Positions 12,436 to 30,499 of a DNA stretch of 34,400 nucleotides are shown in pieces (position 1 is the first letter of the stretch; each line of letters begins with the position of its first letter). The stretch covers positions 1 through 34,400 of the forward strand of contig UQMR01000021.1 of assembly GCA_900542255.1 (NCBI GenBank), in the 5' to 3' direction. Position numbers and translations under genes: made by a program. The notes below the pieces were generated by a model. The model searched no databases. It saw only the letters and a list, made by a program, of their open reading frames with translations, and was not told the origin of the DNA. The stretch is from an uncultured Porphyromonadaceae bacterium. Lineage in GTDB: Bacteria > Bacteroidota > Bacteroidia > Bacteroidales > Barnesiellaceae_A.

Positions 12436-13938
12436 ATGAAAAGCGAGTTGCGCAAAGGTGCGACCTATAACTACCTGAACCTGTTGCTGGTAAATGCAAC
12501 GGGACTGGTGCTTACGCCTTTTATCATACGTTGCCTCGGGCCCTCACAATATGGGTTGTATCTTCTTGCCGGGGCTATTGTACCTTACCTTACGCTTCTC
12601 GATTTCGGCCTGGGGAAGACAACTACCCGATATGTCGCCTATTACCGTGAACGCGGCGACGAAGAGGGGTTGCGCGCCTGTCTTGCCTCTATATTCCGCC
12701 TCTGTGTGCTGCTGTGCGCCGTATTGCTTGCTGCCGGGGCCTCGCTATATTTTCTTGCGCCGCAACTGTGGGGCTCTCATTTCGACTCGGAGGAGGTGGC
12801 ATCCATGCGGAGGATGATTGCGGTCATTGCCGTGACGCAGGCCTTTATTATTCCGGGCAACATATTCACGGCTATCTGCAACGGATGCGGACTCTTTGCT
12901 TTCCCGCGAGGGATACAGCCGATAAAATATACGCTGCGTGCCGTATGTATAGGCCTGCTATTGTGGCATGGGGAGAAGGCCCTGGCTCTGATATGCGTAG
13001 ATGCAGCCCTCAACATAGGGGTTGTGATTGCTACTTGCCTGTATGTGCGCCGCCGTATTGTATGGCCGTCGCTGCGAGAGGCTGCGACGATGCCCTTGAA
13101 TCATATTCTGCCATACGCTTTCTGGATAGCGATATATCAGGCGACTGCCGCATTCCAATGGAATACGGGACAGATTGTTGCGGGTATGACGCACGACTCG
13201 CTGGCAGTGGGGGTAGCCGGGGTAGGCATACTGCTGGGATGCATGTATGGATATTTTGCGGAGACTATCAACCGGATGCTCTTGCCCCGCGCAACGCACA
13301 CGGTGTGCCTCCATGCCGACAAGCGGCTTGTAACGGATGAGATGATAAGGATGGGCAGGATGGTATTATTACCACAGTCTTTTATCTTGGGCGGCTTCGT
13401 GATTTTCGGCGGGTCGTTCGTACGGCTGTGGGCGGGCGACATGTATGGGCAGGCCTACCCTATCGCTCTCGCCATCATGGCTTCGTGGACGGTGCAACTT
13501 ACCGGTGACTACGGAAATTCGCTGCTGGAAGCACACGGAAAAGTGCGAACACTCTCGGTTATCAATTTTATATGTATATTTGCCGCCGCTATCGCATCAT
13601 ATTATGCTTCCCGGCAATGGGGACTGGGTGGGATGACCGCGGCTCTGTGCTGCGGAACAATCGCTGCCACCATTGCCAATCATATATATTACCGCAAGAG
13701 ACTGGGTGTGGAGAGCGGCAGATACTTCAAAGCGGTATATATGCGCATCATCGTCGCCACGGCTCTGATGGCGGCCTTGGGACGCATGGTATGGGAACCT
13801 TTTGCAGCATCGTGCAACTGGATAGGACTTGCCACCGGATGTGCGGCTTATGCGCTTATATATGCGTCTGCGAGCTATTTTATCGCTTTGACGCAACAGG
13901 AGAGAGAGAAACTAAAAACATTATGCTTACGAAAGTAG
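12436..13938 (+). CDS. Polysaccharide/oligosaccharide flippase (Wzx-like, MOP superfamily)
   Basis: A 500-residue polytopic membrane protein with about 12-14 hydrophobic segments. The N-terminus (KGATYNYLNLLLVNATGLVLTPF, LGPSQYGLYLLAGAI, LLDFGLGKTTTRYVAYYR) is characteristic of lipid-linked oligosaccharide flippases, which move glycan repeat units across the inner membrane. The ATG at 12436 is chosen over 12388 because the conserved N-terminus begins there. The stop lies 16 bp inside the next gene, a glycosyltransferase, so the two are translationally coupled. There is no polymerase or larger glycan cluster in the window, so the substrate is unknown. Confidence 0.9.
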   Translation: MKSELRKGATYNYLNLLLVNATGLVLTPFIIRCLGPSQYGLYLLAGAIVPYLTLLDFGLGKTTTRYVAYYRERGDEEGLRACLASIFRLCVLLCAVLLAAGASLYFLAPQLWGSHFDSEEVASMRRMIAVIAVTQAFIIPGNIFTAICNGCGLFAFPRGIQPIKYTLRAVCIGLLLWHGEKALALICVDAALNIGVVIATCLYVRRRIVWPSLREAATMPLNHILPYAFWIAIYQATAAFQWNTGQIVAGMTHDSLAVGVAGVGILLGCMYGYFAETINRMLLPRATHTVCLHADKRLVTDEMIRMGRMVLLPQSFILGGFVIFGGSFVRLWAGDMYGQAYPIALAIMASWTVQLTGDYGNSLLEAHGKVRTLSVINFICIFAAAIASYYASRQWGLGGMTAALCCGTIAATIANHIYYRKRLGVESGRYFKAVYMRIIVATALMAALGRMVWEPFAASCNWIGLATGCAAYALIYASASYFIALTQQEREKLKTLCLRK

Positions 13939-14762
13939 GAAAGGATTCGACACAAACTGCGCCCAAGGTATCGGTCGTGATGGGCATCTATAACTGTGCC
14001 CGTACTCTGCGCGATGCAATAGAGTCGGTCTTTCACCAGAGCTACGGTGACTGGGAGCTGATTTTGTGCGATGATTGCTCTACCGACGACACATATCGCA
14101 TTGCGCAAGAATTTGAACGGAAGGATTCCCGTATCAAGCTCTTGCGCAATGCCGAAAACATGGGATGCAATATCGTACTGAACCGCTGTATTGCAGCGGC
14201 AAGGGGTGAATATATCGCCATCATGGACAGCGACGACGAGTCGCTGTCCCTCCGTCTCGCGCGCGAGACGGAGTTTCTCGATGCCCACCCGCAATATGCT
14301 CTCGTTGCCTGTGCGGCCTCGTTCTTCGACGACGAGGGCGACTTCGGCATCCTGCGTAAAAAGGAGATTCCCGATATAAAAGATTTTGCATACAGTATCC
14401 CGCACCTACACGCTACGTGCATGATACGACGCGATGCCCTGACGGCCATAGGAGGATATGGCAGCCATCGGAGGATGACAAGGGTGGAGGATTACTATAT
14501 GCTGGCACGCCTTTATGCCGCGGGGTATCGGGGGTATAACTTGCAGGAGGTGTTATACCGCATTTGTGATAATGCGGCCTCTTATAAGCGCCGTACGTGG
14601 CAGAACCGCATGAATGAGGTGTACACTTTCGGGGCGGCACACAAACTTCTGAAACTTCCTTTCTATTCGCGCATCGCTCTGCTTCGCCCTGTTTTGGTGG
14701 GTATCATGCCCAATTTTCTCTATCATTTGCTGCATCGCAAGGTGCGCCTCCGTCAGAAATAA
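13923..14762 (+). CDS. Family 2 glycosyltransferase (GT-A fold)
   Basis: A 279-residue sugar transferase. The frame is open far upstream (13572), but that part is a shadow of the flippase gene; the ATG at 13923 starts just before the conserved KVSVVMGIYNCARTLRDAIES. Hallmarks are ELILCDDCSTDDT, ENMGCNIVLNRCI, and the DxD-type metal/nucleotide-sugar motif in IAIMDSDDES, followed by the acceptor region RRMTRVEDYYMLARLY. No membrane span is obvious apart from a weakly hydrophobic C-terminus. It overlaps the flippase by 16 bp and overlaps the opposite-strand gene ending at 14753 by 10 bp tail to tail. Donor and acceptor sugars cannot be read from the sequence. Confidence 0.9.
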   Translation: MLTKVGKDSTQTAPKVSVVMGIYNCARTLRDAIESVFHQSYGDWELILCDDCSTDDTYRIAQEFERKDSRIKLLRNAENMGCNIVLNRCIAAARGEYIAIMDSDDESLSLRLARETEFLDAHPQYALVACAASFFDDEGDFGILRKKEIPDIKDFAYSIPHLHATCMIRRDALTAIGGYGSHRRMTRVEDYYMLARLYAAGYRGYNLQEVLYRICDNAASYKRRTWQNRMNEVYTFGAAHKLLKLPFYSRIALLRPVLVGIMPNFLYHLLHRKVRLRQK

Positions 14763-25056: not shown

Positions 25057-27585
25057 ATGAAGGCAACCAACCATAAAAAGAAAAAAAGCGATAACAATCC
25101 CCCGAAAGAGAAAGCCAAGGAGAAGAAAAGCTACACGCCATTCTACAAACGCGAGAGTGTGCAGTTTATCACGGGATTGATACTGACCTTTGCAGGTATA
25201 TTTATCTTTATTTCTCTCGTTTCGTTTTTCTTTACCGGCGATGCCGACCAGAGTGCGGTAGAGAACTTGTCGACGAAACAACTTTTCGATATAGATAACG
25301 AAATAGAAAACTGGACGGGTACCCTCGGCGCGATTACTTCGAACCTGCTCATCAACCGCTGGATAGGATTGTCGGCGTTTATCTTCACGGCTTGGTTGTG
25401 TATCGTGGGTTTGCGCCTGATGCGCGTAAACCAAGCCAATATGTGGCGCACAACGATATACTGCCTGCTGGGGAGCATCATTTTATCGGTATTTTTCGGG
25501 TTTCTATATGTCAACATGGGTATAGACTCTTTCCTTTCGTGGGGAGGCAACCACGGCTACATTGCGGCCAAGTACCTGCACAGCATCATAGGCCCGTGGG
25601 GAACGGCGATGATTATCATCGTATTGGTCGTGACGCTGCTCGTGATGATAAGCCGCAGCACCATAGACTTTATACGCAAGGCCTTGAAGGCAAACATTTT
25701 CAGTAATCCCTTCAAAAAGCCGGCGCAAACGGCGGGCCCGTCGCCTGATGGCGATGCAAGCGGCTCGGACGATGCCGGTGCAGAGGGAAAGCCTTCGGAG
25801 GAGGGTGTGGAGATACCTTTTGCCGAACCCGATGCGGGGTTGTTTACGTTTGTAAATGATGCCGGGCCGGAAGACTCAACCCCTGCCGAACCGGACAGGA
25901 AGGCCGATGAGCCGGCCGCTGCGTCGCCAATCGATACGATTACCACGCAAAAGAGCGAAGAGAAAAACGAAATAACCATCGATGTCCCGGCTGTACTGTC
26001 GGGTGAAGGGGAGCCGTTGTTTACCGTATCGACGGGTACGAAAGAGGAGCTTTTGGATGAGGTCATCAGCGAAGAGTATGACCCTACGCTCGACTTGCCC
26101 CGCTACCGCAAGCCCTCGCTCGATTTGCTGAACGATATCACGGCCAAACAGAATGTGGTGGATATAACCGAGTTGGAGAGCAACAAGCAGCGTATCACGG
26201 ATACGTTGCAGACTTTCGGCATCGAAATAAGCTCTATACAGGCTACCGTGGGACCTACGGTGACACTCTACGAAATAATACCGGCTCCGGGAGTGCGCAT
26301 ATCGAAAATAAAGAATCTCGAAGATGATATTGCGCTGAGCCTTGCGGCGCTGGGCATACGTATCATTGCCCCCATCCCGGGGAAAGGGACGGTGGGTATA
26401 GAGGTCCCCAACAACGACCCGCAGACGGTGTCGATACGCTCTATCATAGCCTCGCGCAAGTTCCAAGAGTGCAAGTATGAGCTGCCCATCGCCCTGGGAA
26501 AGACCATCACCAACGAAGTCTTTATCGCCGACCTCACCAAGATGCCGCACGTGCTGGTGGCCGGTGCCACAGGACAGGGTAAATCGGTGGGCCTGAACGT
26601 TATCATCACGTCGTTGCTCTACAAAAAGCATCCGGCCGAGCTGAAACTGATACTGATAGACCCCAAAAAGGTAGAGTTCGGGATTTATGCCGATATAGAG
26701 CGGCACTTCCTGGCCAAACTGCCCGATACGGAAGATGCCATCATCACCGATGTAACGCAGGTGGTGCAGACGCTGCAATCGGTAACGAGGGAGATGGACA
26801 TGCGCTATGACTTACTCAAAGAGGCTCACGTGAGAACCATCAAAGAGTATAATGCCAAGTTCAAGGCCCGCCACCTGCTGCCCAGCAAGGGGCACAGGTT
26901 CTTGCCTTATATCGTGGTAATCATCGACGAGTTCAGCGACCTTATCATAACGGCGGGCAAGGAGGTGGAGTCGCCCATCATACGCATCGCTCAGCTGGCG
27001 CGTGCCGTGGGCATACACATGATTATCTCGACACAACGCCCGTCGACCAACGTAATCACGGGTATCATCAAGGCCAACTTCCCGGCCCGTATCGCTTTCA
27101 GGGTACAGGCTATGGTAGATTCCCGTACCATCCTCGACAGCCCGGGAGCCAACCAACTCATCGGCCGGGGCGACATGCTTATCTCGCAGGGCGGCGAGAT
27201 GGTGCGCGTGCAGTGTGCCTTCATAGATACTCCCGAGGTGGAAGGGGTGTGCAAATTCATCAGCGAACAACAGGGCTACTCTGAGGCGATGCCTCTGCCC
27301 GAGTATATCCCCGATAACAATGGCGACGGCAATGGCGGCAACGCCTTCGATACCAAAGAGCGCGACCCGCTCTTTGAGGAGGCGGCACGCTTTATCGTAT
27401 CAAACCAACAGGCCTCTACCTCGTCGTTGCAACGGCGCTACTCGATAGGATACAACCGTGCCGGGCGTCTGATGGACCAGATTGAGGCAGCCGGCATCGT
27501 AGGCCCGTCGGTGGGTGGCAAGCCCCGTGAGGTGCTTATCATAGACCTCATGCAACTCGAAAACAAACTCGATGCAATGAAATAA
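25057..27585 (+). CDS. ftsK: DNA translocase FtsK
   Basis: An 842-residue division-site DNA pump that moves chromosome ends and activates XerCD recombination. The N-terminus is Lys-rich, followed by about four membrane helices (residues 35-205). A short acidic, Pro/Ala-rich linker (about 225-310) is far shorter than the E. coli linker. The motor holds Walker A GATGQGKS (Lys509) and Walker B VVIIDEFSDL (Asp624), and QLARAVGIHMIISTQRPSTNVITG. The gamma winged helix spans 770-840 (DPLFEEAARF, SIGYNRAGRLMDQIEAAGIVG) with the canonical GYNRA recognition residues for KOPS-like sites. lolA follows by 18 bp. Confidence 0.97.
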   Translation: MKATNHKKKKSDNNPPKEKAKEKKSYTPFYKRESVQFITGLILTFAGIFIFISLVSFFFTGDADQSAVENLSTKQLFDIDNEIENWTGTLGAITSNLLINRWIGLSAFIFTAWLCIVGLRLMRVNQANMWRTTIYCLLGSIILSVFFGFLYVNMGIDSFLSWGGNHGYIAAKYLHSIIGPWGTAMIIIVLVVTLLVMISRSTIDFIRKALKANIFSNPFKKPAQTAGPSPDGDASGSDDAGAEGKPSEEGVEIPFAEPDAGLFTFVNDAGPEDSTPAEPDRKADEPAAASPIDTITTQKSEEKNEITIDVPAVLSGEGEPLFTVSTGTKEELLDEVISEEYDPTLDLPRYRKPSLDLLNDITAKQNVVDITELESNKQRITDTLQTFGIEISSIQATVGPTVTLYEIIPAPGVRISKIKNLEDDIALSLAALGIRIIAPIPGKGTVGIEVPNNDPQTVSIRSIIASRKFQECKYELPIALGKTITNEVFIADLTKMPHVLVAGATGQGKSVGLNVIITSLLYKKHPAELKLILIDPKKVEFGIYADIERHFLAKLPDTEDAIITDVTQVVQTLQSVTREMDMRYDLLKEAHVRTIKEYNAKFKARHLLPSKGHRFLPYIVVIIDEFSDLIITAGKEVESPIIRIAQLARAVGIHMIISTQRPSTNVITGIIKANFPARIAFRVQAMVDSRTILDSPGANQLIGRGDMLISQGGEMVRVQCAFIDTPEVEGVCKFISEQQGYSEAMPLPEYIPDNNGDGNGGNAFDTKERDPLFEEAARFIVSNQQASTSSLQRRYSIGYNRAGRLMDQIEAAGIVGPSVGGKPREVLIIDLMQLENKLDAMK

Positions 27586-27603: not shown

Positions 27604-28230
27604 ATGATACGGAGAATAACCCTACTCTTTGTGATATGTATCGCCGCATGGATGCCGTCTCAGGCTCAAAAGTCGGCAGAGGCGTTGCTGGATAATGTGA
27701 TAGAGCAGATGCACAAAGCTCGCGGCATCACGGCAGAGTTTACCCTGCAAGGCGACGAGCGCAATGCCTTGTATATGCAGGGCGAGCTGAAAATGAAAGG
27801 GAAGAAATTCTTCTTGCAAACCAATGGCATGGCTACCTGGTACGACGGCAAAACGATGTGGTCTTATGCCGAAGTCACGGGCGAGGTAAATGTCTCCGAA
27901 CCCACAACACAGGAGCTCATGAGCATCAACCCGTACTACTCGATAGACAAGTACAAGAAATCTTTTGTCGTAACCGAGTTGCAGGCTGCCAGAGGGGGCG
28001 AACGCCGTATCTGCCTCACGCCTACGGGCCGCAACACATCGATAGCCCGTATCGTGGTGACCATAACGACGGGCTCTCTGCAACCGGTATCGTTTGAGAT
28101 TACCGACCTCAACAACTCGACGAGCCGCATCTCGGTAACGAACTACCGCACCGATGCAGACCTGACCGAGGATACGTTTGTATACGACGCTTCGCTATAC
28201 CCGCAAGCTGTCGTGGTAGACCTCCGCTAA
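27604..28230 (+). CDS. lolA: LolA-like periplasmic lipoprotein carrier
   Basis: A 208-residue exported protein with signal peptide (MIRRITLLFVICIAAWMPSQAQ). The LolA fold signature is visible: amphipathic helix SAEALLDNVIEQMHKARGITAEF, then the beta strands GELKMKGKKFFLQT, WYDGKTMWSYAEVTGEVNVSEP and YPQAVVVDLR at the end. LolA carries lipoproteins from the inner to the outer membrane, relevant to the lipoprotein at 5763. The gene lies directly after ftsK, as in enterobacteria. The symbol rests on fold and position; Bacteroidetes members are divergent. Confidence 0.86.
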   Translation: MIRRITLLFVICIAAWMPSQAQKSAEALLDNVIEQMHKARGITAEFTLQGDERNALYMQGELKMKGKKFFLQTNGMATWYDGKTMWSYAEVTGEVNVSEPTTQELMSINPYYSIDKYKKSFVVTELQAARGGERRICLTPTGRNTSIARIVVTITTGSLQPVSFEITDLNNSTSRISVTNYRTDADLTEDTFVYDASLYPQAVVVDLR

Positions 28231-28280: not shown

Positions 28281-29216
28281 ATGGAAAGAACCAAATGTCT
28301 GATTATCGGCTCGGGTCCTGCCGGATATACCGCAGCCATCTATGCTTCGCGAGCCAATCTCGCCCCTATCCTCTACGAGGGACTTACCCCGGGGGGACAA
28401 CTCACTACAACGACCGACATAGAGAACTTCCCGGGATATCCGGAGGGTGTATCGGGTACTGAAATGATGGAGGACTTGCGCAAACAGGCAGCCCGCTTCG
28501 GCGCCGATATACGCACCGGCGAAATATTGTCGCTCGATACCGATGCCCGCCCGATGGTGGCAAAAACCGATGACGGCACAGAAATCGCTGCCGATACCAT
28601 CATTATCGCCACAGGTGCCTCGGCAAAATACTTAGGTCTTGCCGACGAAACGAAGTATGCCGGCATGGGCGTATCGGCATGTGCCACATGCGACGGATTC
28701 TTCTACCGCAAGAAGGTGGTGGCTGTGGTAGGCGGCGGCGATACGGCCTGTGAGGAGGCTGTATATCTCTCGCACCTTGCCAAGCAGGTGTATATGCTGG
28801 TGCGCAAGGATTACCTGCGTGCCTCGAATATCATGAAGGAGCGCGTAAACGCTACGCCCAACATTACTGTCCTCTTTGAGACACAAGCAGAAGGGCTCTA
28901 CGGCGACAATGGCGTAGAGGGTGTTCACCTGGTAAAGAAGCGCGGCACTCAGCAGGAGGAGCGCTATGACCTGCCTATCGACGGATTTTTCCTTGCCATA
29001 GGACACAAACCGAACACCGATTTTCTGGCCGGGAAAGTAGAACTTGACGAACAGGGTTACATAAAGACGGCTCCATATACCTCTGAGACGAACTTGCCCG
29101 GAGTCTTTGCCGCCGGCGACGTTGCCGACCCTCGCTATCGCCAAGCTATCACGGCTGCCGCATCGGGTTGCCGTGCCGCTATCGACGCAGAGCGCTACCT
29201 GCTGTCGAAGGCGTGA
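28281..29216 (+). CDS. trxB: Thioredoxin reductase
   Basis: A 311-residue flavoenzyme passing electrons from NADPH to thioredoxin. The FAD motif is IIGSGPAGYTAAIYASRA near the N-terminus, the redox pair is Cys134/Cys137 in ACATCDGFFY, the NADPH motif is VVGGGDTACEEAVYL, and the second FAD motif is FAAGDVADPRYRQAITAAASG. All landmarks are intact and the length is normal. It lies 50 bp after lolA, and a small FtsK-gamma-like gene starts 40 bp after it, so the three are likely one transcript. Confidence 0.96.
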   Translation: MERTKCLIIGSGPAGYTAAIYASRANLAPILYEGLTPGGQLTTTTDIENFPGYPEGVSGTEMMEDLRKQAARFGADIRTGEILSLDTDARPMVAKTDDGTEIAADTIIIATGASAKYLGLADETKYAGMGVSACATCDGFFYRKKVVAVVGGGDTACEEAVYLSHLAKQVYMLVRKDYLRASNIMKERVNATPNITVLFETQAEGLYGDNGVEGVHLVKKRGTQQEERYDLPIDGFFLAIGHKPNTDFLAGKVELDEQGYIKTAPYTSETNLPGVFAAGDVADPRYRQAITAAASGCRAAIDAERYLLSKA

Positions 29217-29256
29217 AACCGCATGACAATATTTACTTCTATAAAGGGATACGATT

Positions 29257-29568
29257 ATGGAAACGAAATCGGAGAACGCAAAGGATATCAAAATTCTGCC
29301 TGATGTCTCTGACAGAGACCACGACAATGTGGCAGCAAGGCTTATCATGCCCCAAAATCCCGACCCCTACTTTGCTGCCGCGGCACGCTATGCCGTGAAA
29401 AACGGTAATACAAGATTTGCATCGTTGAGAGGCGGCATCGTACCCTTGTCGCATGCGACAAGGGTAATGCAACAGCTGCAACAAGCGGGCATTATAAGCA
29501 AGGAGCCTCCCCATCTTGTGTTGGTAAGGGATTGCGAGGCCTTGGAGAAGGCTCTCGCCCGTCTATGA
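29257..29568 (+). CDS. Stand-alone FtsK-gamma-like winged-helix protein
   Basis: A 103-residue protein whose residues 35-100 resemble the C-terminal gamma domain of the FtsK encoded nearby (770-840). Shared features in order are DP-F--AAR--V-N, SL, A-R-M-Q, and AGI. By hand I count 17 identities over about 46 aligned positions with one single-residue gap. The recognition helix differs: GYNRA of FtsK is replaced by PLSHA, so DNA specificity may be changed or lost. Residues 1-34 are polar and look disordered. The gene follows trxB, with a terminator after it. The role is unknown; it could be a DNA-binding protein or a partner of Xer/FtsK. Confidence 0.75.
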   Translation: METKSENAKDIKILPDVSDRDHDNVAARLIMPQNPDPYFAAAARYAVKNGNTRFASLRGGIVPLSHATRVMQQLQQAGIISKEPPHLVLVRDCEALEKALARL

Positions 29569-29604: not shown

Positions 29605-29642
29605 GCCGATATGAAATAAATATTTTCATATCGGCATTTTTT
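29605..29642 (+). terminator. Rho-independent terminator after the FtsK-gamma-like gene
   Basis: A perfect 12-bp inverted repeat (GCCGATATGAAA at 29605-29616, TTTCATATCGGC at 29624-29635) with a 7-nt loop is followed by ATTTTTTAT. It closes the ftsK-lolA-trxB transcript. Confidence 0.88.
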
Positions 29643-29651
29643 ATCATATTG

Positions 29652-29797: not shown

Positions 29798-30499
29798 ATG
29801 GTAAAAAAGAGTACATTAGAGTCTATCCTGCAAAACGAGATGTCTGATTTCTGGGCGCTCCTCGACAGTGAAGAGAAGCACGTACTATCGGACAATTTCG
29901 TCATACAGAATTTCAAAAAGAACGAAATCATTTATTGCGAGGGAGACCAACCGCTGCAATTGATGTATCTTCTGAAAGGGAAAGTAAAGGTGTACAAGAA
30001 AGGGATAGGCGACCGCAACCAAATCATCAGACTTATCCGGCCGGGTGAATACTTCGGATACAGAGCCTATTTTGCCCACGGAAACTATGTCGCATCGGGA
30101 GCGGCCATCGAAGCATCACAAGTAGGTTTCCTGCCTATGAAACTCGTAGAAGAACATGTACACCGCAACATAGACCTCGCCTTTTTCTTTATAAGGGCTC
30201 TTGCCGACAACCTGGGGCAATCGGATACCCGCACCGTAAACCTCACACAAAAACACATTCGCGGGCGTCTTGCCGAGGCCATTATCTTGCTATACGAAAA
30301 CTACGGCTATGAGCCCGACAGCCAGACTCTAAACATATACCTTTCCCGCGAAGACCTTGCCAACCTTTCTAACATGACGACCTCAAATGCGATACGCACC
30401 CTTACGGCGTTTGCGGCAGAACATATCCTGGTAGTAGACGGCCGGAAGATTACGATACTCGACGAGGAGCGGTTGCGCCGCATCAGCAAATTCGGATAA
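29798..30499 (+). CDS. Crp/Fnr-family transcription regulator
   Basis: A 233-residue regulator. Residues about 30-115 form a cyclic-nucleotide-binding-type beta roll (FKKNEIIYCEGD, LLKGKVKVYKKG, IRPGEYFGYRAYF); residues 125-150 are the dimer helix; residues 150-230 are a winged helix with the recognition region SREDLANLSNMTTSNAIRTL at 183-202. The phosphate-binding Arg/Ser pair of cAMP receptors is not evident after EYFG, and there is no N-terminal Cys cluster for an Fe-S centre, so the effector is unknown. It has its own promoter and follows a terminator, so it is a single-gene unit. Confidence 0.92.
   Translation: MVKKSTLESILQNEMSDFWALLDSEEKHVLSDNFVIQNFKKNEIIYCEGDQPLQLMYLLKGKVKVYKKGIGDRNQIIRLIRPGEYFGYRAYFAHGNYVASGAAIEASQVGFLPMKLVEEHVHRNIDLAFFFIRALADNLGQSDTRTVNLTQKHIRGRLAEAIILLYENYGYEPDSQTLNIYLSREDLANLSNMTTSNAIRTLTAFAAEHILVVDGRKITILDEERLRRISKFG

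Follow-up and report, generated by a model that had tools for sequence, protein, structure and literature searches.

The gamma domain of FtsK uses one small winged-helix surface both to read FtsK orienting polar sequences (KOPS) and to switch on XerD, two roles described as hard to separate (PMC5052618). Related sequences also occur elsewhere. Phages carry single FtsK_gamma-like genes, the role of which is called still unknown, and Bacillus phages Sam46 and Sam112 encode a small terminase fused to an FtsK_gamma domain (PMC8190038); a Borg protein family with PF09397 appears in a table of PMC9879509. Here, we analyze a bacterial gene of this kind, located in a 34,400-nucleotide stretch of contig UQMR01000021.1 (the window) from an uncultured Porphyromonadaceae bacterium. 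The gene lies in the same row as ftsK and encodes a protein of 103 amino acids (the solo protein), which its sequence almost certainly identifies as a diverged paralogue of the gamma winged helix of FtsK, without the motor. We consider it about as likely as the toss of a coin (probability, roughly 0.5) that the protein now acts as a free-standing DNA-binding protein of altered specificity. Its features are as follows.

29257..29568, + strand: solo FtsK-gamma-like gene, 103 amino acids, described from its open reading frame, translation, comparison with FtsK, profiles, and substitution pattern.
29314..29364, + strand: solo-specific conserved segment RDHDNxAARLxMPxxPD, codons 20-36, with a short helix predicted at 20-28.
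29362..29532, + strand: winged-helix region aligned to FtsK gamma, codons 36-92, from BLASTP, hhalign, alignment, and structure comparison.
29440..29487, + strand: loop and recognition helix VPLSHATRVMQQLQQA, codons 62-77, with a helix predicted at 64-77; aligned with IGYNRAGRLMDQIEAA of FtsK.

The start, stop, and length of this reading frame all agree with the original prediction, as does the absence of a motor domain. Thus, the product lacks the architecture of an FtsK translocase, in which motor, membrane part, and gamma domain share one chain. The start is well constrained, because the frame opens at 29245, just 12 nucleotides 5' of the ATG at 29257.

Descent from FtsK gamma is indicated by several comparisons. 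BLASTP aligns the solo protein with the FtsK of the same cell at 25 identities over 69 columns (expectation value [E] 1e-7 for the single pair), which improves on the hand count (17 identities over about 46 positions) that had first suggested the resemblance. A lineage-specific profile of 33 gamma sequences from related bacteria was run against the 711 stop-free frames of at least 40 amino acids in the window and in L001, a locus with a second solo gene from a genome labelled uncultured Barnesiella. The two FtsK proteins rank first at 144 bits, followed by the solo proteins of the two loci with 29.8 and 25.7 bits (the latter being that of the window, E 2.8e-7); the best unrelated frame reaches 8.8 bits, and the best of 5000 composition shuffles reaches 8.7. 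With hhalign, the solo family matches FtsK gamma at 97.1% probability over 73 columns. Searched the other way, a solo-family profile (A1) finds FtsK as its next match after the solo gene in the carrier genome (G001, E 2.7e-7) and as its best match in the eight other examined genomes of the genus, where PF09397 scores the same protein above cut-off; one of these eight has an additional weak match (E 0.005). The best solved-structure matches of the predicted solo fold are FtsK gamma domains, although the model has a mean predicted local distance difference test score of 73, the alignment behind it is itself mostly FtsK gamma (63 of 68 rows), and the comparison covered the families in the fold list, which leaves room for families outside it. 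Prediction from a solo-rich alignment was of too poor quality for use. Sequence searches of the PDB, with the protein and with the profile of a five-row solo-family alignment (A3, which leaves out P0003, P0006, and P0007), returned nothing meaningful; NCBIfam gave no match to the protein, and PHROGs gave weak matches only (best E, 0.0058).

The general Pfam models are equivocal between two families. FtsK_gamma (PF09397), the profile proposed as a check in the original prediction, matches residues 36-83 at 15.0 bits (E 0.021), short of its curated cut-off of 30.6. HTH_Crp_2 (PF13545), a helix-turn-helix model, matches residues 66-98 at 20.9 bits (E 3.6e-4), also below its cut-off of 27. Both models match all five members of A3, with HTH_Crp_2 slightly ahead (best E, 6.8e-6 versus 1.5e-4), and PF13545 is the precomputed domain of the relative P0004. 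This is nearly the outcome that had been named as speaking against the prediction, i.e., no profile match or a better one to another winged-helix family. The lineage-matched profiles decide the matter in favor of FtsK gamma, however, and the lineage gamma profile is significant where PF09397 falls short.

The domain differs from FtsK gamma on its reading surface, for which residues were mapped by hand to E. coli FtsK numbering (peptide 1289-1297, RQFRIGYNR). The XerD contacts of FtsK lie at 1288-1296 and are a subset of its KOPS DNA contacts (Keller et al. 2016, PMC5052618), and of the FtsK residues, R1289 affects XerD activation the most (PMC5052618); R1300A, E1303A, and E1306A blind FtsK to KOPS (Sivanathan et al., PMC2680272). 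The solo protein keeps the equivalents of R1289 (R58) and R1300 (R69). Across the XerD-contact set (Q1288, R1289, R1292, I1293, G1294, and N1296), it is identical at R1289 only: the contact loop GYN has become PLS, and I61, V62, P63, and S65 stand for R1292, I1293, G1294, and N1296, respectively (S occupies the 1292 position in the FtsK of this cell). H66 replaces R1297. The KOPS-reading set is likewise incomplete, as Q72 and Q75 occupy the positions of the acidic E1303 and E1306. The replacement of GYNRA by PLSHA noted in the original prediction is correct by alignment. The description there of GYNRA as KOPS-reading is incomplete rather than wrong, as the GYN stretch touches both XerD and DNA and the KOPS-blinding sites lie further along the helix. 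The wing is three residues shorter than that of FtsK gamma, the winged-helix part is basic (isoelectric point, 9.85 versus 6.40 for the FtsK gamma of the same cell), and the D-xxx-LE tail of Barnesiella FtsK is present. N-terminal to the domain, 12 of the 17 positions of segment 20-36 are invariant in A3, and P0007 deviates at position 36; in an alignment, the segment has no likeness to the FtsK linker of the window or of L001.

From these substitutions, the solo protein most likely no longer reads KOPS in the manner of FtsK, nor activates XerD through the known peptide. The protein retains the winged-helix core in sequence, with a changed reading surface, a wing shortened by three residues, and an N-terminal segment that is conserved and particular to it. 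In the reading that we favor, this free protein would bind DNA sites other than those of FtsK, could self-associate (perhaps through the N-terminal segment), and may function, produced along with FtsK, as a small regulatory or nucleoid protein.

A perfect 26-bp palindrome, TACCCTTGTCGCATGCGACAAGGGTA, lies inside the solo gene at 29441-29466, over the codons for VPLSHATRV. Among palindromes of the window with loops of up to 6, none is longer, and L001 lacks any inverted repeat with arms reaching 8 at this site. The 26-bp palindrome may serve as an operator or reflect a templated mutation, and it might explain the shorter variant P0003.

We consider it possible, if doubtful, that the solo protein instead modulates XerD or FtsK, docking on XerD or joining FtsK gamma subunits on DNA as a decoy or inhibitor that tunes dimer resolution. 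Its gene stands in the FtsK row, and R58, the equivalent of the residue most important for XerD activation, is kept. In addition, the XerD of the sole carrier genome (L069, above the TIGR02225 cut-off; the XerC-like protein of this genome is below the XerC cut-off) has glutamate where E. coli XerD has E184, the partner of R1289. The glutamate is absent from all eight non-carriers of the genus (G002-G009) and present in 1 of 27 other Bacteroidales. However, this is one position in one carrier, spotted after the fact, and five of the six XerD-contact residues differ. R1289 is also invariant in the FtsK rows of alignment A5; since Bacteroidales XerD mostly lacks E184, conservation of this residue need not mean XerD binding. 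No test supported the roles of decoy, XerD adaptor, or FtsK competitor put forward in the original prediction, and that of adaptor is weakened by the replacement of most of the XerD surface. It is improbable that the paralogue, made in step with FtsK, is dedicated to antagonizing or tuning dimer resolution by Xer and that the carrier's XerD has been matched to it at E184.

It is unlikely that the solo gene, short and lineage-restricted as it is, is a partial copy of ftsK in decay or without use. The window and L001 copies differ at 84 nucleotides across 103 aligned codons, and 51 of these differences are at third positions. The ratio of nonsynonymous to synonymous substitution rates (dN/dS) is 0.087, a rough value given that dS is saturated at 1.9; 528 of 2000 bootstrap replicates were saturated or uncorrectable and the rest gave 0.044-0.218, and the uncorrected pn/ps ranges from 0.126 to 0.335 by bootstrap. 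Both the third-position pattern and bootstrap ranges that, where finite, stay below 1 argue against decay, as do full-length relatives at 70-99% identity (P0002, the L001 copy, P0004, and P0005). The neighboring genes have lower dN/dS (trxB, 0.020; crp, 0.012; lolA, 0.077; ftsK, 0.069 as a whole and 0.005 for its gamma domain) and higher amino acid identity (lolA, 82%; ftsK, 89%; trxB, 95%; crp, 97%; solo, 77%). We conclude that the solo gene is under purifying selection between species, yet evolves faster than its neighbors, and its faster evolution fits decay, as do three damaged-looking variants. P0003 lacks 12 residues in the recognition region (if it is included, fewer positions there are invariant, as it does not have them), and P0006 and P0007 have an altered, longer C terminus that looks like the result of a frameshift.

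Finally, despite the Pfam ranking, it is highly improbable that the protein is a small regulator of Crp or other winged-helix type, unrelated to FtsK gamma and similar to it through convergence, as the HTH_Crp_2 match of the window protein is partial (33 residues, positions 38-69 of 70) and below cut-off, a genus-specific profile from the C-terminal regions of ten orthologues of the neighboring Crp/Fnr gene does not match it, hhalign against the same set gives 0.1% (for this one Crp subfamily only), and the solo profile turns to FtsK in carrier and non-carriers alike.

The gene row around the solo gene consists of the following elements.

25057..27585, + strand: ftsK with a canonical gamma domain (27364-27576); Pfam FtsK_4TM, alpha, motor, and gamma above cut-off.
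27604..28230, + strand: lolA-like gene; Pfam LolA_2 above cut-off, and synteny.
28281..29216, + strand: trxB-like gene; Pfam Pyr_redox_2 above cut-off, the name trxB from the original prediction, and synteny.
29605..29643, + strand: intrinsic-terminator-like hairpin (12-pair stem) and T run closing the row; a hairpin follows the solo gene in L001 also.
29798..30499, + strand: Crp/Fnr-like regulator gene; Pfam cNMP_binding and HTH_Crp_2 above cut-off, and synteny.

Gene order in L001 is as in the window, and in relatives without the solo gene, the Crp/Fnr-like gene adjoins trxB. The species behind the window is presumed from L001, the trxB-like proteins of the two being 95% identical. A hairpin stands 3' of trxB in all eight non-carriers, with a GCCGATATG stem in four and other stems in four; in the two loci with a solo gene, window and L001, the GCCGATATG hairpin is found 3' of that gene instead. 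Thus, trxB and the row's terminator flank the solo gene. A consensus scan gave no terminator-like site on the + strand between 25842 and 29604, and because its 6 sites compare with 5.8 expected by chance, the terminator call rests on conservation of the hairpin in L001 and the relatives. We infer that ftsK, lolA, trxB, and the solo gene share a transcript, as was predicted; the gaps of 18, 50, and 40 nucleotides and the hairpin with T run (29605-29635) after the solo gene fit such a transcript. No Rfam family matched in the window at the gathering threshold. A pair of adjoining inverted repeats occurs at 14225-14273, inside a frame (13572-14762) that matches Pfam Glycos_transf_2; the second of them is a perfect 24-bp palindrome.

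The solo gene is specific to one lineage of Barnesiella-like gut bacteria. Among 5.8 billion proteins, in a search that requires shared five-residue words, a single-sequence query found five relatives and a profile six. Pattern scans, which can overlook relatives without the patterns, gave 58 stretches in genome contigs, of which one (the L001 locus) is a true relative, and 14 in viral contigs, none of them a relative; the phage and plasmid collections gave no match. One of the nine examined genomes of the carrier's genus has the gene, other species of the genus being outside the sample. Across the order, the A1 profile matched in 57 of 393 genomes (E ≤1e-3), the other 336 having nothing at that threshold. 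The matches listed in the 57 lie in frames of at least 342 amino acids, by size presumably FtsK, except for the solo gene and a single frame close to the edge of a contig. A survey of 148 Bacteroidota genomes found one FtsK_gamma match in 145 and two in 3 (E ≤1e-5), and among the matches listed, at least three are in frames below 300 amino acids, one of them at a contig start; this survey is blind to copies as divergent as the solo gene, for which the carrier copy scores 14 bits (E 0.102). The FtsK gamma piece as query retrieved 1612 proteins, and the 120 listed are mostly FtsK fragments from the ends of contigs, judging by their names and the shortness of the contigs.

These data suggest gain of the solo gene, by copying from ftsK, rather than many losses. 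In six of the eight non-carriers, the matches flanking the trxB-crp spacer are 197-235 bp apart, and no remnant of the solo gene was detected in the spacers of the eight (best E, 1.2 among 244 peptides). In the other two, L038 and L043, the spacer 3' of trxB holds unrelated frames of 458 and 514 amino acids, respectively, and the L043 contig ends before crp. The spacer looks as if it were a site of repeated insertion. Presumably, one Barnesiella lineage acquired the solo gene when the 3' end of an ftsK gene was copied into the spacer that separates trxB from its terminator. The solo profile scores the cell's own FtsK at 32.1 bits and the best other Bacteroidales FtsK at 35.3; as it has no preference for the former, duplication within the genome and uptake from a relative are indistinguishable.

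In the accessible portions of the open-licence PMC literature, we found no report of a chromosomal solo gamma protein. Motor-less gamma proteins are already known in phages, and new here is the chromosomal case, placed in the ftsK row and with a rewritten surface. Like FtsK gamma (PF09397; 2j5p, 2ve8, 2ve9, and 5dcf), the solo protein has the winged-helix core in sequence, equivalents of R1289 and R1300, and the tail of Barnesiella FtsK. Unlike it, the protein has no motor, replaces GYN and two KOPS residues, has a shorter wing and its own N-terminal segment, and falls below the Pfam cut-off. As a natural paralogue with the core kept and the surface rewritten, it could offer a ready test of which residues serve the KOPS role and which the XerD role. 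Its recognition helix and tail resemble in sequence the C-terminal helix-turn-helix of Crp/Fnr (PF13545), from which it differs by the partial, sub-threshold match of the window protein and the silence of the genus-specific Crp profile. The window's own FtsK gamma domain as query found 294 phage records, including gp53 of Gordonia phage Bowser, a 348-amino-acid frame annotated as an FtsK-like translocase. With the phage gamma proteins of PMC8190038, the solo protein shares a gamma domain without the FtsK motor; the Sam46 and Sam112 domains are said there to keep their DNA-binding sites, whereas the solo gene is chromosomal, stands in the ftsK row, and has a diverged binding surface. The solo protein would thus exemplify the sequence-reading part of a motor turned into a free protein, a chromosomal counterpart to the single gamma genes of phages.
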